From a virus, in IMG/VR virus record IMGVR_UViG_3300021961_000573, positions 1-25,566 of that record: a stretch of DNA of 25,566 nucleotides; one strand, written 5' to 3'. The notes beneath the pieces are model-generated. The model had not been told where the DNA came from and made no database searches. It saw only the letters and a program-made list of their open reading frames with translations. Made by a program: the position numbers and the translations under genes. This document shows positions 1 through 25,566 of this stretch, piece by piece; the first letter of the stretch is position 1; each line of letters begins with the position of its first letter.

Positions 1-284
1 AAATTAACTCCATAAAAACCACCAGAGGCATATCTAAAGGGCAGAACAAATGGGAATCTATCCCAATATGGAAGTTTGTCTTGCCATTTTGCTTCATAAA
101 CATACATGTAGAATTTACCTAATTCTACCGATTCTGCATAATCACCAGATTGTGCTATGAGATTATTGTATGGAACACGAATTTTTCTTAATTGTTCTCT
201 AAACCAATTTAAACTTTCTCTACTTCTACTTTGTAGTTCAGATGGTTTCTGATTTTTTATTTCCTCTAGAACACTTAATGCCAT
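1..284 (-). CDS. Partial conserved phage protein downstream of gp4 (function not recognised)
   Basis: This frame is open from ATG 284-282 to the window edge, giving at least 94 residues with no stop; the C-terminus lies outside. The product begins MALSVLEEIKNQKP and contains the aromatic-rich stretch KLPYWDRFPFVLPF around residues 71-84. It has no signal peptide or obvious membrane segment. It follows gp4 on the same strand, 14 nt after the gp4 stop, and a late-promoter box (290-297) ends six positions before its ATG. In T4 the neighbour of gene 4 is gene 2 (DNA end protector), so a packaging or head-completion role is possible from position alone. I see no motif that proves it. The coding call is firm because of the long open frame, the promoter and the position. 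The function is unknown. Confidence 0.75.
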   Translation of the reverse strand, partial: MALSVLEEIKNQKPSELQSRSRESLNWFREQLRKIRVPYNNLIAQSGDYAESVELGKFYMYVYEAKWQDKLPYWDRFPFVLPFRYASGGFYGVN

Positions 285-298: not shown

Positions 299-739
299 TT
301 AAGTTAGGTGATCTTCAGTTAAAATTCTAAATTCATATCGTCTATCTTTACAATATTCATTAGCCGCTTTAAACTTTGCCTGATTGATCATGTAGGTTGC
401 AACTTCATTCATCCATCGTTGTGTTCTTCGTTTAGGTTCAGGTGGTGGTTTGAGTTGTTTCTTTGGTTTAACTTCTATGATAACTCTGCGTGATTGACCT
501 TTGTTGTCTACATACTTAATATAGAAATCAGGAAAATATCTATGAACTCTTTTATCGAGTGGTGACTTGTAAGGTATGATAACTTCTTCACTTCCCCATT
601 CTATGATATTTGGATTATTGTCGCAATAAACCATGAATCGCCTTTCCCATAAACTTCTGTATATGATGCTTGTAGGATCGCCTTTATATTTCTTATAATT
701 TTTCGGTTTGAACTTACCGCTATATGGTTTTTTGGGCAT
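299..739 (-). CDS. gp4: Head completion protein gp4 (PD-(D/E)XK nuclease fold)
   Basis: The 146-aa product matches T4 gp4 (also called gp50, 150 aa) in length and character; gp4 acts on DNA-filled heads before tails attach. The PD-(D/E)XK (TnsA-like) core is visible: E32 in the LWERRF helix, then FPDFYI with D71, then IIEVKPKK with E89 and K91. The N-terminus is very basic, fitting DNA binding. I chose ATG 739 (MPKKPYSG) because the upstream TTG at 748 adds only three residues and no ribosome site. A late promoter at 764-771 on this strand would start transcription near 758, leaving a leader of about 19 nt. The gene is divergent from gp48 at 773. The family assignment is confident. Whether cleavage is active in this phage is inferred from the intact motif. 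Confidence 0.9.
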   Translation of the reverse strand: MPKKPYSGKFKPKNYKKYKGDPTSIIYRSLWERRFMVYCDNNPNIIEWGSEEVIIPYKSPLDKRVHRYFPDFYIKYVDNKGQSRRVIIEVKPKKQLKPPPEPKRRTQRWMNEVATYMINQAKFKAANEYCKDRRYEFRILTEDHLT

Positions 740-744
740 AAATA
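737..744 (+). promoter_or_regulatory. Late promoter candidate (CATAAATA) for the gp48 operon
   Basis: CATAAATA differs from the T4 late consensus only at the first base, and the same variant occurs at 24525. The predicted start of transcription is near 750, which leaves about 23 nt of leader containing AAGAG (759-763), a modest ribosome site 9 nt before ATG 773. The box overlaps the first codons of gp4 on the other strand. Confidence 0.6.
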
Positions 745-763
745 ACAATAAACACTTTAAGAG

Positions 764-771
764 TATTTATA
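764..771 (-). promoter_or_regulatory. T4-type late promoter (TATAAATA) for gp4
   Basis: The minus strand has an exact TATAAATA ending at 764, with predicted initiation near 758 and the gp4 ATG at 739. It faces the rightward box at 737-744, so the first 8-9 nt of the two transcripts would be complementary. Confidence 0.75.
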
Positions 772-6722: not shown

Positions 6723-6730
6723 TATAAATA
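6723..6730 (+). promoter_or_regulatory. T4-type late promoter (TATAAATA), leaderless geometry, for gp25-gp6
   Basis: The sequence reads TATAAATAGTTAAATGG. The predicted start of transcription (six positions past the box) is 6736, the A of the gp25 ATG. No Shine-Dalgarno-like purine run precedes the ATG. The box is the only signal in the 28-base gap after the previous gene. Confidence 0.8.
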
Positions 6731-6735
6731 GTTAA

Positions 6736-7152
6736 ATGGTTGACATAGTAAACGAAGGAAAAACAGTTGCAGTCAAAGAAAGTTTTGCCGATTTAAACAT
6801 TCTTATGACTCCTCACCCGATCACTGGTGATATAACACTGAAAACAGACGCTGAGGCGATAAAAAGATCAGTTAGAAACATAGTGATGACTAATTTTTAC
6901 GAGAGACCATTTAAACCTAGTTTAGGAACTTCTTTGAGAAATCAACTTTTTGAGTTGAATGATCTGAGAGTAAGATCGGTAGTATCAAAGAGAGTTAAAA
7001 ACTCTTTAGAGAAGTTAGAACCTAGAATTTCAGATGTACAAATGTCGTTTGGTGAAATGGACAGTAATAATTTGTATGTAACTATTTTCTATACTATTAG
7101 AAATAGTCAAAGGACACAAGAAGTAGAATTCACAGTTAAAAGGGTAAGATAA
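6736..7152 (+). CDS. gp25: Baseplate wedge protein gp25
   Basis: The 138-aa product is a GPW/gp25-family wedge protein (T4 gp25 is 132 aa), a sheath-initiator element at the inner baseplate. The family signature is clear: HPITGDI near residue 26, then AIKRSVRNIVMTNFYERPFKPSLGTSLRNQLFE at about residues 43-75, and strands near the end with FYTIRNSQRTQEVEFTVKRVR. The start directly follows a late promoter with no leader. The next in-frame ATG is at residue 24, which would remove part of the family N-terminus. The stop overlaps the gp6 start by one base (TAATG), so gp25 and gp6 are translated together, in keeping with the known gp25-gp6-gp53 complex. Confidence 0.93.
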   Translation: MVDIVNEGKTVAVKESFADLNILMTPHPITGDITLKTDAEAIKRSVRNIVMTNFYERPFKPSLGTSLRNQLFELNDLRVRSVVSKRVKNSLEKLEPRISDVQMSFGEMDSNNLYVTIFYTIRNSQRTQEVEFTVKRVR

Positions 7153-9097: not shown

Positions 9098-9571
9098 ATG
9101 GCAGATAAAAAAATAAGTGCATTAACAGCAGTAGCAGATTCAGACATAGGTGCTGATGATCTTCTACATATTGTTGACAATCCTGGTGGCACGCCAGTAA
9201 ACAAAAAAATGACCATTGGTCAGTTGTTCGAGAATATCCCAACTCACCTTGCAGTTGACGATATAGCATCACTAACAGCAACCGCTTCAAACTTAGCATC
9301 TACATTTGCTACAGCATTTGATGGCGGTTCTTTCAGTGCTAACACATCTTTTACATTAGATGATGGTACCGACACTGGTCAAATTAAAGTGATGTACATG
9401 AGTTCATTTCACGGGTCTTCATACCAAGCACAAGTGACAGTATCATCATGGGGTTATTCTTCAACTACTTCAAACCAATTAGTATTTGATGCTTTAGGTG
9501 AAGCAGTCATTCTATTCTGGAATGGTTCAAACTGGTTCCCAATTGGTTCAGTTGGAGTAACTATTAGTTAA
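9098..9571 (+). CDS. Small virion structural protein with DKKISALTA N-terminus
   Basis: The 157-aa product starts MADKKISALTAVADSDIGADDLLHIVDNPGG, a fold-initiating segment common at the N-termini of tail-fibre and other virion-surface proteins of marine phages, followed by NKKMTIGQLFE. The rest (residues ~55-157) is Ser/Thr/Gly-rich and beta-stranded, ending with FWNGSNWFPIGSVGVTIS. No enzyme motif is present. A strong ribosome site at 9084-9088 suggests high expression compared with its coupled neighbours. The next gene starts two bases after the stop. Its position between gp6 and the large wedge protein suggests a baseplate decoration or short-fibre part. The family type is recognised from the N-terminus; the exact role is inference. 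Confidence 0.8.
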   Translation: MADKKISALTAVADSDIGADDLLHIVDNPGGTPVNKKMTIGQLFENIPTHLAVDDIASLTATASNLASTFATAFDGGSFSANTSFTLDDGTDTGQIKVMYMSSFHGSSYQAQVTVSSWGYSSTTSNQLVFDALGEAVILFWNGSNWFPIGSVGVTIS

Positions 9572-13042: not shown

Positions 13043-13050
13043 TATAAATA
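13043..13050 (+). promoter_or_regulatory. T4-type late promoter, upstream copy of a tandem pair
   Basis: An exact TATAAATA starts two bases after the stop codon of the large wedge gene. Predicted initiation is near 13056, inside the second box. Confidence 0.75.
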
Positions 13051-13053
13051 GTA

Positions 13054-13061
13054 TATAAATA
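13054..13061 (+). promoter_or_regulatory. T4-type late promoter, downstream copy of a tandem pair
   Basis: A second exact TATAAATA lies 11 bases (one helical turn) after the first. Predicted initiation is near 13067, leaving a 14-nt leader that is mostly the ribosome site AGGAG (13067-13071), 9 nt from ATG 13081. The pair and the strong ribosome site suggest high expression of gp8. Confidence 0.78.
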
Positions 13062-14544: not shown

Positions 14545-14564
14545 AAGGGGATTTATCCCCTTTT
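14545..14564 (+). terminator. Intrinsic terminator after gp8
   Basis: AAGGGG (14545-14550), loop ATTTAT, CCCCTT (14557-14562) and two further T form a GC-rich hairpin that stands out in AT-rich DNA, starting three bases after the gp8 stop. The T-run is short (four, two of them in the stem), so termination may be partial, letting some transcription reach the next gene. Confidence 0.72.
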
Positions 14565-14579: not shown

Positions 14580-17500
14580 ATGCAGAAGACTGATTTAAAT
14601 ATCACTCCATACTATGATGATTTTAGTGAAGATAAGAACTTTCAAAAAGTATTATATAGAGCTGGTAGACCTCTTCAAGCAAGAGAGTTAACACAAACTC
14701 AATCAATACTTCAAAATCAAATAGAAAGATTTGGTAATCACTTCTTTAAAGAGGGTTCTATTATTCAAGGAGCTCAGACAGATGTTAGTATGGATTACTA
14801 CTATGTCAAAGTGTCATCTGCAAACCCTAACTCACTTGGTGATTCAAATGTAGAAACATACAGAACATCATCACATTTATCTTTTATAAGAGGTAAAACT
14901 TCAGGTGTAATTGCTCAAATCTTCGCATCATCAGCTGAAACTTCAGATGATCCACTTACACTTTTTGTGAAATACTATTCACAAGGTACAGACTCAACAA
15001 ACTCAACTTCTTTTGTAGCAAATGAAGAATTAGAATTTGTAACACTAGATTCTAATGGTAGTGCTACTGCAACTTCAAGTAATAATGAATTTTCAGTCTT
15101 AGCAAGTACAGAGACACCAAATGGTCGTGCTTCAATCGCAAACATTTCAGAAGGTGTGGTGTTCTTAAGAGGTTTCTTCTGTAAAGTAGAGGCACAACAA
15201 TTAATCTTAGAAAAATATTCTGGTAAACCATCATATAGAGTTGGTTTAAAAATAACAGAACAGATTATTACATCAGCAAATGACAGTTCACTTTTAGACA
15301 ACGCAACAGGAACAAATAACGAAAATGCTGCTGGTGCAGATAGATTAAAACTATCATTAATTCTTTCAAAATATCTTTTAACAGATACAGATGATGTAAA
15401 CTTTGTAGAGTTTGTAAGAGTTAATAATGGTACTATCGAATTATCAATTCAAAATCCAATCTACAACGAAATAGAAAACACACTTGCAAGAAGAACTTTT
15501 GATGCAAACGGTGACTTTGTTGTTAGACAATTCACTCACTCACTTAGAGAACACTTAGACGATACAATAAACAGAGGTTATTATACTTCTACAAATGGTG
15601 GTGACGAAACAAAAGTAGTCATGCAAGTATCACCAGGTAAAGCATATGTAAAAGGTTACGAAATAGAGAAGATTGGTACGACACCTATTACATTAAACAA
15701 GGCAAGAACAACAGTTTCATTAGATAATGCAAACACACCTATTAGATTAGGAAATTTTTTACGAGTAACTAATGCACACTCATTACCTGAGTTTGGTAAC
15801 GAAACAGGTACAGATGCACAAAGTCCATTTCAATATTGCAAATTATGGCCAAGTGTTATATCAAGTGCAGGTACAGAAAACTCAGAAGATCATATCGGTT
15901 TTGCAAGAGTTAGAGACATCACTTTAAATACAGGAACAGATACATCAAATGTTTATGATAATTCTTCTAAATGGGAATTATCAATGTTTGACATTAAGAT
16001 GTTTACTAAGATATCTTATTCTGGTCATTCAGGAACAGCACAAGTTGGTGATAAGATAACAGGTTCATCTTCTGGTGCAACAGGTATACTTGCATACGAT
16101 AATAATTCAAATGCCATATATTTGCACGATGTTGTAGGAAACTTTACAACTTCAGACGCTTTATCTTCTGAAGGTGCTGGTAATTTTTCAATCACTTCTG
16201 GTCAGAATACTGCAGTTAGAGACTACAACATTGATAGAGTAAGATCGATCACACAAAATCCAAAAGAGACAAGTAGAGAAACATTTACTGCTGATTTAGT
16301 AGTTGATGCAGAATTTTCACTTGCTGGTACTATTACATTTACAAATGCAAGTGCAACTGTTACAGGTTTTGGTACAAGATTTGCAGCTCAAATAAAAGAA
16401 GGCGATAAGATTTATAATCCTGGTAATTCAGAATACTTAATAGTATCATCTGTAACAAGTGATACATCTCTTACTCTTACAGGTAATGCTGGCGGTGGTT
16501 ATCAAGGTAAATCAACTAGATTTAGAACACAATTATACAACCAAGATCAAACAGCAAACATATTTGCATGGCCAAGAGACTTTGTAAAATCACATACTGC
16601 AGAATCAGTTACCATTAGAAGACAACAAGTATTAACAGTTGATGGATCTGGCACATTTACATTAAGCACAGGTTCAAACGGAACATTTGGTTCAGTTAAT
16701 ACAGATAACTTCACTCTTGCTGTTATCGAACAAAAATCTTCAGGCACACCTGATTACAGTAATGGTGATTTATTAAACATAGAAGATTTTACAATATCAG
16801 GACCTACCTCTTCAGGTACAGGTCAAACTTTAACAGTTCAAGGTTTAACCAATGACGATGGTGCAATTATTAAAGCAACATTTACTGTTACTGTAACTGA
16901 TCCTGTTAATAGATCAAAAACACTTAGACAAGGCAGATTACTCAAAGTTGGTAGTAGTAGAACTGCAGGTGGTTTTTATGGAACTGCATATAATGATTCT
17001 GAAATATCACTTGGTGTTTCGGACATTCATAAAATTCGTGCAGTTTACATGGGTACAACACCATTACCACCTAGTGCAACACTAAACAGTATCAGTGGCA
17101 CTTTCACGCTATACGAAACAGTCGTAGGACAAACTTCAGGCGCAAGAGCAACATTAATTGATTATAATGGTTCAAGTGCAACATCATATTGGTATTACAC
17201 AAACGCAGAAAAATTTGTAGATGGTGAAACAATTGTTGGTCAAACTTCATCAGCATTTTGTACAATAAGTGGTGTATCACAGGGTTCACAAAATATTGTA
17301 AGTCGTTATTTCTTTGATGATGGTCAAAGAGATGGTTACTATGATTTAGGTAAATTAATTAGAAAACCAGGCAATCCTGCACCTAATGAGCCTATTTTAA
17401 TCGTATTTGATTACTTCACATCAACAGGAAGTGGGGACTTTTATGATATCAATTCTTATGGTTCAATAGACTATGATGATATTCCTGTATATTCACCAAA

Positions 17501-22508: not shown

Positions 22509-23621
22509 ATGGCAGACGAAATTTATATAAACACAGGAAGCACATTTCAACAACCTTATAATGCTAGGCAACCTGCTAATGCTCAACAACCATATATAGC
22601 AAACGCTCAACAGCCTTATCCTTATATTGCTAATGCACAACAGCCATACATTGCTAATGCACAACAGCCTTATCCATATATTGCGAATGGACAGCAACCC
22701 TATATAGCAAGTGCTCAACAACCGTATCCGTATATTGCTAATGCACAACAACCGTATATTGCTAATGCACAACAACCTTATCCATATATTGCGAATGGAC
22801 AGCAACCCTATATAGCAAACGCTAGATCGCCATTTACTTATTCTAGACAGGCACAACAACCATATCCTTACATAGTAAATGCTAGATCACCGTTTACTTA
22901 TCAGGTGCCATTTATAACTCAGCAACCATACACTTTTAATGCTAGAACGCCATTTACTTATCAGGCACAGGGTCGTGTGCCTGCAAGTGCCCAACAACCA
23001 TACACCTTTAGTGCGAGAAGACCTGCAGTAGGTAGAGTACCTTACATCTATGCAGGTGATACAAGTTATATTGGTTCGAGTGGTTTAATTATAGATGATT
23101 GGGCTGAAACAAGTTCTGGATCTGTTACTTCAGTTGCTGGTGTTGTAATTTATGCTTTCTACAGTAGTGCTAGTGAAATTCAACTAAAAGCACACATTTA
23201 CTCTGCTGAGGATACTAGTTGGTACGACACTTCAAATGTGATTCAGGATCCTACTGCAGGAATTGATTTACCAACAAACAATTTATTATACAAAATAGAA
23301 GATGTTGCAAGTGGTTATACTGTTAGATTCTCTGTAAGTGGTGGCACTACAACTACAGGAGATGGTATAGCTTCTGTAACAGGTTATCCTAATAGTCCTG
23401 CAACTGCTTCCATGAGTACTGTTATAGGATCAATTTCAACAACAGTTATAAGAGGAGTTCTCTTTAGATTTTCATCTCTTGCTGGTGATGGTGAATCTAC
23501 AAGTGGTGATGCTCTATTTGATAATGTTCAATTTATTTTTGAAAAATCAGGTTCAACAACTTTTACAAAAACCTTTGATATCTTCTGTAACACTAGTGCA
23601 GATTCTTATGGAGGGCAATAG
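22509..23621 (+). CDS. Gln/Pro/Tyr repeat protein with beta-rich C-terminal domain (370 aa), putative adhesin
   Basis: I recognise no named family. After MADEIYINTGSTF, residues 14 to ~180 are repeats. Residues 26-97 are four 18-residue units, each an 8-residue QQPYIANA followed by a 10-residue QQPYPYIANA (N/S and A/G vary). Later units shift to RSPFTYSRQA and RTPFTYQAQG. The repeats contain no Cys, Trp or acidic residues. Residues ~185-370 are a Ser/Thr/Gly-rich beta domain (GLIIDDWAETSSGSV, ending TFDIFCNTSADSYGG). GGTGA lies 3 nt before the ATG. It is followed after two bases by a small gene and then a second repeat protein. The likely role is a proline-spaced fibre stalk with a C-terminal binding head; this is inference from composition and location. 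Confidence 0.85.
   Translation: MADEIYINTGSTFQQPYNARQPANAQQPYIANAQQPYPYIANAQQPYIANAQQPYPYIANGQQPYIASAQQPYPYIANAQQPYIANAQQPYPYIANGQQPYIANARSPFTYSRQAQQPYPYIVNARSPFTYQVPFITQQPYTFNARTPFTYQAQGRVPASAQQPYTFSARRPAVGRVPYIYAGDTSYIGSSGLIIDDWAETSSGSVTSVAGVVIYAFYSSASEIQLKAHIYSAEDTSWYDTSNVIQDPTAGIDLPTNNLLYKIEDVASGYTVRFSVSGGTTTTGDGIASVTGYPNSPATASMSTVIGSISTTVIRGVLFRFSSLAGDGESTSGDALFDNVQFIFEKSGSTTFTKTFDIFCNTSADSYGGQ
22584..22799 (+). repeat. Four tandem 54-bp units coding 8+10-residue QQPY repeats
   Basis: Each 54-bp unit encodes QQPYIANA plus QQPYPYIANA. Codons vary between units (CAA/CAG; CCA/CCT/CCG/CCC; GCT/GCA/GCG), so the protein pattern is better kept than the DNA. Two blocks 108 bp apart are nearly identical, pointing to one recent duplication. 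Degenerate repeats extend on both sides (about 22548-23050). Confidence 0.9.
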
Positions 23622-23874: not shown

Positions 23875-24519
23875 ATGCCTACAGGTCAACAACCATATAT
23901 CTATCAACAACCTTACATTGCTCAAGGAACAACTCCTATTATTGTTCAGCAACCATATCCTTATATTGCAGATGCTAGACAACCCTATATTGCTCAAGGT
24001 AGAACACCAACATCTGCTAGATATCCTGCTGATGGACAACAACCCTTTACTTTTCAGGCACAAGGTCAGACACCTTATCCGTATATTGCAGATGCTCAAC
24101 AACCATTCACCTATAATGCGAGATCACCATTCACATATACAAGACAAGGTCGAACACCTTTCACATATCAAAACAGACAACCGTTCACTTATGCTACACA
24201 AGGTAGAACACCATTTACCTATCAAAATAGATCACCTTTCACATATGCAACACAAGGTAGAACACCATTTACCTATTCAAATAGAGCACCGTTTACTTAT
24301 GCTAGACAAGGTCAAACACCTTTTACATATCAGAACAGGCAACCTTTCACATATCAAAATCCTTACATTGCAACCAGACCAATAGGTCCACTTGCAAAGG
24401 TTAAAGGCGTATATGTAAACCAAGGTGGGTCTGTAGTACAAGTTGATGAAATCTATGTCAATAATTCTGGTACAATAGAAAAAATACATCAACATCCATC
24501 TCAACCGTTTGACACCTAA
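23875..24519 (+). CDS. Second Gln/Arg/Pro/Tyr/Phe repeat protein (214 aa)
   Basis: Residues 5 to ~92 are mixed QQPY, RQPY and GxTP repeats (QQPYPYIADA, RQPYIAQG). Residues 93 to ~164 are four regular 18-residue units of the form RTPFTYQNRQPFTYATQG, again 8+10 residues as in the upstream gene. The C-terminal ~45 residues change character: LAKVKGVYVNQGGSVVQVDEIYVNNSGTIEKIH, two copies of an EIYVNxxGT-like element that also opens the 22509 product (DEIYINTGST). The repeats are rich in Arg, Thr and aromatics and free of Cys and Trp. No enzyme motif is seen. It probably forms an extended shaft or coat linked to the virion through the C-terminal element. The function is inferred. Confidence 0.85.
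   Translation: MPTGQQPYIYQQPYIAQGTTPIIVQQPYPYIADARQPYIAQGRTPTSARYPADGQQPFTFQAQGQTPYPYIADAQQPFTYNARSPFTYTRQGRTPFTYQNRQPFTYATQGRTPFTYQNRSPFTYATQGRTPFTYSNRAPFTYARQGQTPFTYQNRQPFTYQNPYIATRPIGPLAKVKGVYVNQGGSVVQVDEIYVNNSGTIEKIHQHPSQPFDT
24151..24366 (+). repeat. Four tandem 54-bp units coding 8+10-residue xxPFTY repeats
   Basis: The units encode RTPFTYQN plus RQPFTYATQG with changes at the second position (Q/S/A) and near the end. The DNA of the units is very similar, for example two exact copies of ACACAAGGTAGAACACCATT, about 54 bp apart, which indicates expansion more recent than in most of the 22584 array. Confidence 0.88.
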
Positions 24520-24524
24520 AATTG

Positions 24525-24532
24525 CATAAATA
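24525..24532 (+). promoter_or_regulatory. Late promoter (CATAAATA), leaderless geometry, for the Ig-like gene
   Basis: The sequence reads CATAAATAGTTATATGG, almost the same as the box before gp25. The predicted start of transcription is 24538, the A of the ATG. No purine-rich ribosome site precedes the ATG. Confidence 0.7.
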
Positions 24533-24537
24533 GTTAT

Positions 24538-24870
24538 ATGGCTATTATTGCAAACTTATACATAGATCAAGGAACAGACTTCTCAGTAACAGTAGATGTA
24601 ACTGATTCTGCTGGTGAGGTTTTAGAACTAAGTGGATATACTGCATCTGCACAAATTAGAAAAACATACAGTTCTTCTAGTGTGAGTGCAACATTCTCAA
24701 CTTCTATCGCTGAACTTGCAGGACAAGTAACATTAAGTCTTACTGATACACAGACTTCTGCATTAGAATCAGGAAGATATGTATATGATCTAAATATAAC
24801 AAGTGGTGCAGGACTAATTACAAGAGTAATTGAAGGTCAGGCAATTATAACTCCAGGTGTAACGAGGTAA
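24538..24870 (+). CDS. Ig-like small virion protein (110 aa)
   Basis: The product is a single beta-sandwich-like domain: ANLYIDQGTDFSVTVDVTDSAG, LELSGYTASAQIRKTYSSSS, LAGQVTLSLTDTQTSALESG, RYVYDLNITSG and VIEGQAIITPGVTR. The DQGTDF start, the GYTAxAQIRK strand and the xGRYVYDL strand mark a small structural protein found near fibre genes in many marine myoviruses; it resembles the N-terminal domain of some receptor-binding or upper-baseplate proteins. It follows a late promoter with no leader, and the following gene starts four bases after its stop. Its role is probably fibre attachment or capsid/baseplate decoration (inference). Confidence 0.83.
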   Translation: MAIIANLYIDQGTDFSVTVDVTDSAGEVLELSGYTASAQIRKTYSSSSVSATFSTSIAELAGQVTLSLTDTQTSALESGRYVYDLNITSGAGLITRVIEGQAIITPGVTR

Positions 24871-25093: not shown

Positions 25094-25101
25094 TATAAAT
25101 A
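25094..25101 (+). promoter_or_regulatory. T4-type late promoter (TATAAATA) for the last fibre gene
   Basis: An exact box lies three bases after the stop of the 71-aa gene. Predicted initiation is near 25107, giving a leader of about 131 nt, much the longest in the window. Confidence 0.78.
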
Positions 25102-25106
25102 TTCAT

Positions 25107-25237
25107 AACAATCAAGGTGTCATTCAGTGAGACACGACCCACATAGTGAGTGGACTGATATATAATGTAATCTTCTAGGGATAGTGAACTAGAAATAAGC
25201 TTATTAATAAATTAAATTCATTTTTTAGGAGAAAAAA
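25107..25237 (+). promoter_or_regulatory. Structured late-mRNA leader with three hairpins sharing AGTGA loops
   Basis: Hairpin 1 is GTGTC/GACAC (25117-25121 and 25131-25135) with loop ATTCAGTGA. Hairpin 2 is CCAC/GTGG (25139-25142 and 25150-25153) with loop ATAGTGA. Hairpin 3 is TTCTAG/CTAGAA (25173-25178 and 25189-25194) with loop GGATAGTGAA. An AT-rich stretch and the ribosome site AGGAGA (25227-25232) follow, 5 nt before ATG 25238. No open frame starting with a good ribosome site lies in the leader. Confidence 0.55.
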
Positions 25238-25566
25238 ATGGCAACAGTTATTCAAATTAAAAGATCAACTGGCGTATCCGCTCCAACGACTTCAGACTTA
25301 TCTGAAGGCGAATTAGCGTATGTGCAGGATAGATCAAATTCAGGTGCTGGTGCAAAACTTTACATTGAGTCAGTAGATTCTGATAACAGTACTCCCCTTA
25401 TTCACGCAATTGGTGGTAAGTACTTTACAGACATGCTTTCTGGTTCAACTGCTACTCCTGCAAACTTCAAAGTATCTAATGGTTCTACCTCAGGTGGTTC
25501 TGTTCAGTTCTTAGAAGATTCAGACAACGGATCAAACTTCGTTGCTTTGAAATCACCAGATTCAGT
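25238..25566 (+). CDS. Partial tail-fibre/virion protein beginning MATVIQIKRSTG
   Basis: The frame is open from ATG 25238 to the window end (109 full codons). It opens MATVIQIKRSTGVSAPTTSDLSEGELAYVQD, the N-terminal segment typical of large phage fibre and other virion proteins (xxIQIKRS, then LxEGELAY), followed by GAGAKLYIESVDSD, HAIGGKYFTDMLSG and a Ser/Gly-rich start of the shaft. A strong ribosome site (AGGAGA) and a dedicated late promoter with a long leader suggest high or controlled expression. The C-terminal part, where host specificity would lie, is outside the window. The fibre class is confident; whether it is a proximal fibre, distal fibre or a capsid decoration is not decidable. 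Confidence 0.85.
   Translation, partial: MATVIQIKRSTGVSAPTTSDLSEGELAYVQDRSNSGAGAKLYIESVDSDNSTPLIHAIGGKYFTDMLSGSTATPANFKVSNGSTSGGSVQFLEDSDNGSNFVALKSPDS

Follow-up and report, generated by a model that had tools for sequence, protein, structure and literature searches.

Late promoter boxes five bases before virion-gene start codons, and putative leaderless late mRNAs, in T4-like phages

The window, its relatives and its late promoter boxes

The window, meaning the whole stretch of DNA analysed here, is the entire 25,566-base IMG/VR virus record IMGVR_UViG_3300021961_000573, a fragment of a T4-like phage. Its gene families include gene 2 (DNA end protector), gene 4 (head closure) and gene 48 (tail tube cap), together with a baseplate wedge family, tail lysozyme, gp25 and gp6. 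Two open reading frames (ORFs; 22509-23621 and 23875-24519) contain many short repeats (QQPYPYIAN, RSPFTY) and are perhaps fibre-like, and a sequence at 14545-14564, AAGGGGATTTATCCCCTTTT, resembles an intrinsic terminator directly ahead of the ORF at 14580.

Judged by its gp6 protein, the window is nearest, within the phage collection, to methylophage Melnitz (43.0%) and to the Pelagibacter phages Mosig (39.6%) and HTVC008M (38.7%), while its closest relative is a 70-kb IMG/VR contig (L003, handle G001) whose gp6 is 96% identical. Homologues of gp55, the late sigma factor, were found in HTVC008M, in contig G001 (piece L135) and in others; none was seen in the window, which is a fragment. IMG/VR relatives were fetched mainly by gp6 homology, so that the adjacent gene 25 is over-represented in the site counts. 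Before counting, two copies of the window (L001, L002) and a piece of the same contig as L003 (L084) were left out, and boxes sharing an identical 50-base context were counted once. Throughout, s denotes the number of bases between the 8-base late box and the start codon.

Three late boxes of the window, each a TATAAATA-like 8-mer with T at -13 as in T4-type promoters, precede start codons at s = 5 (Table 1). They belong to gene 25, to gene 2 and to a gene matching phrog_1084 and phrog_3304, the latter annotated as L-shaped tail fiber protein assembly. The identical spacing noted for these sites by the first-pass annotation of the window was confirmed at all three. The common pattern it had drawn from them, [TC]ATAAATAG-NNNN-ATGG, describes these sites and is general only in part, G following the box in 14 of 28 families and A in 10 of 28; a G at this place is common and not needed, and was rejected as a requirement. 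The minus-strand site of gene 2 also holds an out-of-frame ATG at 288, absent from the first-pass annotation. Of the ten NATAAATA boxes in the window, three lead at s = 5 into an ORF of at least 90 codons (binomial P ~6e-7). Sequences within one mismatch of TATAAATA are not enriched in the window (59 found, 72.5 expected), so the signal lies in the spacing and not in the number of boxes.

Other late boxes of the window stand further from their start codons. The first three bases of the gene 48 box are the start codon of gene 4 on the opposite strand. The boxes of this divergent pair lie across or beside the opposite start codons, and the predicted leaders overlap head to head. At 25094-25237, a TATAAATA box and 136 further bases precede the start at 25238, which bears a Shine-Dalgarno (SD) sequence; the interval may be a long late leader or a small gene.

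Table 1. Late boxes and genes of the window, with the s = 5 genes and the bS21 gene of HTVC008M
Sequence	Feature	Position	Strand	Remarks
Window	Late-promoter box TATAAATA	6723-6730	+	s = 5, spacer GTTAA, gene 25 ATG at 6736
Window	Gene 25, baseplate wedge	6736..7152	+	GPW_gp25 PF04965, E 3.3e-12; predicted +1 = A at 6736
Window	Late-promoter box CATAAATA	24525-24532	+	s = 5, spacer GTTAT, ATG at 24538
Window	Gene matching phrog_1084 (unknown function) and phrog_3304	24538..24870	+	predicted +1 = A at 24538
Window	Late-promoter box TATAAATA	297-290	-	s = 5, spacer GATGG, ATG at 284
Window	Gene 2 (DNA end protector, phrog_429)	3..284	-	cut by window edge; predicted +1 = A at 284
Window	Two tandem late boxes	13043-13050, 13054-13061	+	s = 30 and 19; GAGGAGA, then ATG 13081
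Window	Gene 4 box	764..771	-	s = 24, ATG at 739, no strict SD
Window	Gene 48 box CATAAATA	737..744	+	s = 28, ATG 773, no strict SD
HTVC008M	2OG-Fe oxygenase	6280		s = 5
HTVC008M	CsgF	7562		s = 5
HTVC008M	Putative tape measure	16007	-	s = 5
HTVC008M	DNA end protector gene 2	18916	-	s = 5
HTVC008M	Tail tube cap gene 48	19456		s = 5
HTVC008M	Gene 25	31132		s = 5
HTVC008M	Baseplate wedge initiator	49760		s = 5
HTVC008M	Hypothetical protein	75559		s = 5
HTVC008M	Transcriptional regulator	142360		s = 5
HTVC008M	Ribosomal protein bS21 (PF01165)	91228-91428		L532:41228-41428

Spacing between late boxes and start codons

Box-to-ATG distances were counted over the window and its relatives, the count that the first-pass annotation had named as able to refute its reading, and they displayed a sharp excess at the distance it had given. 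The window and 86 loci related to it (1.14 Mb) hold 132 distinct TATAAATA boxes. An ATG that opens at least 50 codons follows 56 of them at s = 5 and one at s = 6, and s = 0-4 is empty. The profile is flat when the letters are rearranged: their 55 further permutations yielded 5330 boxes, with 27 at s = 5 and 8 to 37 at other spacings from 0 to 44. An enlarged set, comprising the window and IMG/VR relatives in 107 pieces (1.49 Mb including overlaps; ORFs of at least 40 codons), placed 93 of 364 NATAAATA boxes at s = 5, none at s = 4 and six at s = 6. Boxes at s = 5 were also found in the cultured relatives HTVC008M (9/45), Mosig (7/56) and Melnitz-1 (3/43), and in P-HM2 (3/34), whereas none of the 65 boxes of T4 or the 37 of Syn9 was so placed before an ATG ORF of at least 40 codons. 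The shortest box-to-ATG spacings in T4 are 12-14, and its late mRNAs should consequently have leaders.

Counted by gene family, 29 of 108 families have a member at s = 5. Thirteen of the 29 are represented by a single site, and some of these are probably chance. With the three cultured relatives included and ORFs of at least 60 codons, 28 of 79 families appear at s = 5, the other spacings from 0 to 17 averaging 1.5 (Poisson 4e-26). Leaderless (TA-led) genes are marked by a promoter -10 box some 10 bp ahead of the start codon, and the s = 5 sites share this feature.

The spacing of late boxes has two modes: about 5, mostly without an SD, or at least 15, mostly with one. In the family set that includes cultured relatives, with SD-like cores (GGAG, GAGG, AGGA or AAGG) in brackets, starts number 3 (2) at s = 0-3, 116 (18) at 4-6, 8 (0) at 7-9, 7 (1) at 10-14, 9 (7) at 15-17, 29 (24) at 18-22, 74 (53) at 23-30 and 85 (48) at 31-45, so that the interval of 7-14 pools only 15 starts (one SD-like), against 197 (132) at 15-45. 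The near-empty interval implies that a box either adjoins the start codon or leaves enough distance for a leader to accommodate an SD.

As the first-pass annotation had observed, the three s = 5 genes of the window lack a strict SD core and the starts at 9098, 13081 and 25238 have one. The lack alone says little, given that 15 of the 21 listed window starts, a list that includes a few doubtful ones, are without a strict core. At s = 5, moreover, the box itself fills the place of the SD; SD absence was for this reason rejected as independent support for a leaderless reading. Strict cores occur at 15 of 93 s = 5 starts in the window's clade, compared with 77 of 150 leadered ones, the corresponding figures being 2/9 and 6/9 in HTVC008M, 0/7 and 11/22 in Mosig, and 0/3 and 13/20 in Melnitz-1.

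In T4 late numbering the first base of the box, a T, is at -13, as reflected in the wording 'A(-13) in place of T' (PMC2988020), which makes the sixth base after the box +1, and hence the A of each ATG at s = 5. The placement of +1 by T4 geometry in the first-pass annotation agrees with this published numbering. Base profiles were taken from -17 downstream. In the leadered, SD-bearing promoters of these phages (39 families), the sixth base after the box is A at a frequency of.72, G at.18, T at.10 and C at 0, and the 32 leadered promoters of T4 have A at.53 and G at.22 at the same offset. The 90% purine content at this position in leadered promoters supports its reading as an independent mark of +1 there. 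The mark is only relative, as adjoining offsets have a weaker skew and purines, frequent elsewhere in leaders, still reach 80% at offset 8. At the s = 5 sites, 22 of the 28 families carry a T at -1. Taken together, the s = 5 starts of the window, its relatives and the phages HTVC008M, Mosig and Melnitz-1 comprise 112 ATG, no GTG, no TTG and one CTG; GTG ORFs at this spacing number one in T4 and one in P-HM2.

In other viral contigs the rule is nearer to 5 +/- 1. Among the matches listed, counted as distinct sites, the pattern TATAAATAG..ATGGC falls on an ORF of at least 60 codons at 60 of 96 sites with s = 4, 110 of 115 with s = 5 and 73 of 105 with s = 6, and the other boxes of those loci (1,272 boxes, likewise among the matches listed) include 19, 66 and 21 at these three spacings. 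A rigid T4 +1 combined with s = 4 would drop the A of the AUG, so that initiation either shifts by one base there or the model fails; probably initiation has one base of play, or some such mRNAs carry an extra base. The bare pattern, taken without an ORF test in 16 cultured phages beyond the three relatives, gave 24 sites at s = 5 and 5, 9 and 18 at s = 4, 6 and 9, hence no strong s = 5 mode; HTVC008M has nine at s = 5, against one at each of the other three spacings. Three of the four pattern sites at s = 5 in P-HM2 seem to be matched in P-HM1 by position, strand and motif (unaligned), two with changed spacers, and these cyanophages may have a small number of leaderless-type sites as well.

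Gene preference, conservation and phage bS21

The s = 5 spacing is concentrated on particular genes. In a larger set that includes motif-selected loci (matches listed), boxes stand at s = 4-6 before 105 of 116 starts of gene 25 and equally 105 of 116 of gene 2, 23 of 27 of the tail-fibre assembly gene, 22 of 30 of the tail tube gene and 8 of 10 of the portal gene, whereas s = 18-45 holds for 117 of 124 starts of gene 48 and 71 of 97 of gene 4. HTVC008M departs from this scheme in having gene 48 at s = 5 and the tail-fibre assembly gene at s = 18 with an SD.

Gene 25 was followed through 94 hits, less 30 duplicate upstream sequences and one edge case. Of the resulting 63 homologues with distinct upstream sequence, 56 have the box at s = 5; the exceptions are Melnitz-1 (s = 16) and P-HM2 (s = 26), both with an SD, Mosig (s = 8) and contig piece L082 (s = 6), and no box was found before gene 25 in L088, T4 or Syn9. 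Gene 25 thus switches between the s = 5 and leadered modes across lineages. Across 39 gene-25 pairs of 75-97% identity, differences affect 47% of the positions above the box, and almost none fall in the box itself.

Start codons of divergent genes can lie very close together. Genes 2 and 4 of HTVC008M are divergent with start codons 26 bp apart, gene 2 having an s = 5 box and gene 4 a one-mismatch box, TCTAAATA, at the same spacing; in contig L315, the boxes of two divergent starts 21 bp apart overlap, one at s = 5 and the other at s = 4. Gaps of 21-26 bp are too short to hold both a promoter and a leader with an SD, except where the promoter is placed within the facing gene, an arrangement that is possible since the gene 4/gene 48 pair of the window has such boxes. 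At about 4214-4236 of L315, a near-palindromic box, TATTTATAAATA, appears to be shared by both divergent start codons.

HTVC008M also encodes ribosomal protein bS21 (Table 1). By tblastn, bS21 was found in Mosig (61%), in Melnitz-1 (40%) and in the motif-selected contigs L279 and L506. Contig piece L149 (relative contig G009) gave a weak match to part of the protein, over 32 residues, and the pieces of T4, Syn9 and P-HM2 searched gave none. The bS21 loci in cultured phages with the s = 5 spacing are L532, L109 and L118. Matches in the phage collection amount to 35 records, including HTVC008M, Mosig and four Melnitz records as well as other Pelagibacter phages and jumbo Pseudomonas phages; none of the 35 carries the name of a Synechococcus or Prochlorococcus phage. 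In Flavobacterium, bS21 together with other proteins conceals the anti-SD (PMC10783764), and Escherichia coli 61S ribosomes without bS1 and bS21 favour leaderless mRNA (PMC12186496). A late programme in which leaderless virion mRNAs are combined with a phage bS21 that adjusts the balance of host ribosomes between SD-led and leaderless starts is conceivable and rather doubtful: co-occurrence of bS21 and the s = 5 spacing is confounded by kinship, and an effect in either direction is speculation.

Proposed late start mode, rival readings and known systems

In the mechanism that we propose, T4-type late boxes would be read by phage gp55 with host RNA polymerase and the start codon would be set at the point of initiation, so that the late mRNA would begin on the A of the AUG, give or take a base. 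Translation of such an mRNA would need no SD sequence, the 5'-terminal AUG being recognised directly. The genes concerned would be a largely fixed subset of the late genes, namely gene 2, gene 25 and the tail-fibre assembly gene, joined in many contigs by tail tube and portal, with gene 48 and gene 4 mostly keeping leadered promoters. From the sequence data we consider it quite probable that late promoters start mRNA at the AUG and that this set of virion genes is translated leaderless. A second mode of translation start through leaderless late mRNAs, as the first-pass annotation had proposed, gains support from the spacing peak and from the purine signature in leadered promoters; the actual 5' end, the dependence on gp55 and leaderless translation we infer from these features.

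The main competing account holds that the box is a genuine late promoter with a leaderless or nearly leaderless transcript, but that this transcript is minor, most protein coming from polycistronic read-through late mRNA with translational coupling. Where a neighbour was called at the s = 4-6 sites (by a crude ORF rule, motif-selected loci included), the upstream gene is co-directional at 383 of 441, and a leadered read-through mRNA may accordingly exist as well. The remaining 58 sites are divergent, 50 of them within 120 bp, which speaks against read-through, but only 3 of these 50 lie outside motif-selected loci. The exact spacing and the near-invariant box of gene 25 suggest selection on the promoter-to-AUG distance, for which a by-product would have no need, and we regard this account as unlikely.

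Much less probable still is that the s = 5 element acts as an A/U-rich translation enhancer beside the start codon and not as a promoter. It does occupy the SD position, and strict SD cores are mostly absent there, as given above; its 8-mer, however, is identical to that of leadered late promoters 15-45 nt upstream, its spacing is base-exact in the window's clade, with only 15 of 331 starts at s = 7-14, and gene 25 has an SD in the phages with its box at s = 16 and at s = 26. The gap at s = 7-14 is predicted if genes choose between leaderless and SD-led initiation, and is predicted neither by an enhancer nor by chance. Least credible of all is an origin of the s = 5 sites in chance, mis-called starts or stop codons within ATAAATAG. 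A/T-rich sequence and the number of single-site families would suit it, but no peak arises from the permuted 8-mers, which have equal composition, and an SD-preceded in-frame alternative start within codons 2-31 was found in 2 of 110 s = 5 genes, compared with 1 of 103 leadered controls. In the gene-25 pairs, codon position 2 is least and position 3 most variable already in codons 2-12, less clearly than in codons 13-25, and in HTVC008M the s = 5 ATGs coincide with the GenBank starts in nine of nine cases.

If leaderless initiation is indeed used in this way, the T4 family would have a second, SD-independent late start mode in lineages infecting ocean bacteria such as Pelagibacter, with promoter position tied to translation mode gene by gene and predictable from sequence. 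Annotation of start codons in these phages would benefit, and the phage bS21 copies would gain a testable role. A literature search covering titles and abstracts, with most subscription journals outside its coverage, found no description of leaderless late mRNAs in T4-like phages.

The cI gene of phage lambda is a single repressor gene, unlike the multi-gene late class with fixed spacing considered here. Its mRNA is leaderless, with a 5'-terminal AUG (PMC9031893; lambda phage is also named in PMC3160421). Phage transcripts are described in a passing remark as 'often leaderless' in a source that gives leaders of 26-491 nt for phage AR9 (PMC5312081). Kasugamycin allows leaderless translation to continue (PMC4929434). 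In bacteria, TA-led genes lack an SD, have a -10-like signal some 10-12 bp ahead of their start codon and have been read as leaderless (Zheng et al., 2011; PMC3160421); their box is of the sigma70 -10 type and they belong to cellular genomes, whereas the box described here is that of a phage late sigma factor and precedes virion genes. A -10 motif about 6-7 bp before the ORF is likewise known from Deinococcus-Thermus, where eGFP reporters and transcript profiles support leaderless mRNA (PMC12340547); that case concerns a bacterial RpoD promoter, and the main text of the article has no word that starts with 'phage'. The T4 late promoter, dependent on gp55, gp33 and gp45 (PMC2988020), has the same 8-base box and a purine peak at the same offset; T4 differs from these phages in that no box at s = 5 precedes an ATG ORF of at least 40 codons, the one ORF so placed starting with GTG. 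Promoter boxes adjacent to ORFs are thus known in bacteria, and their counterpart in a T4-type late class would, as far as we have seen, be new.
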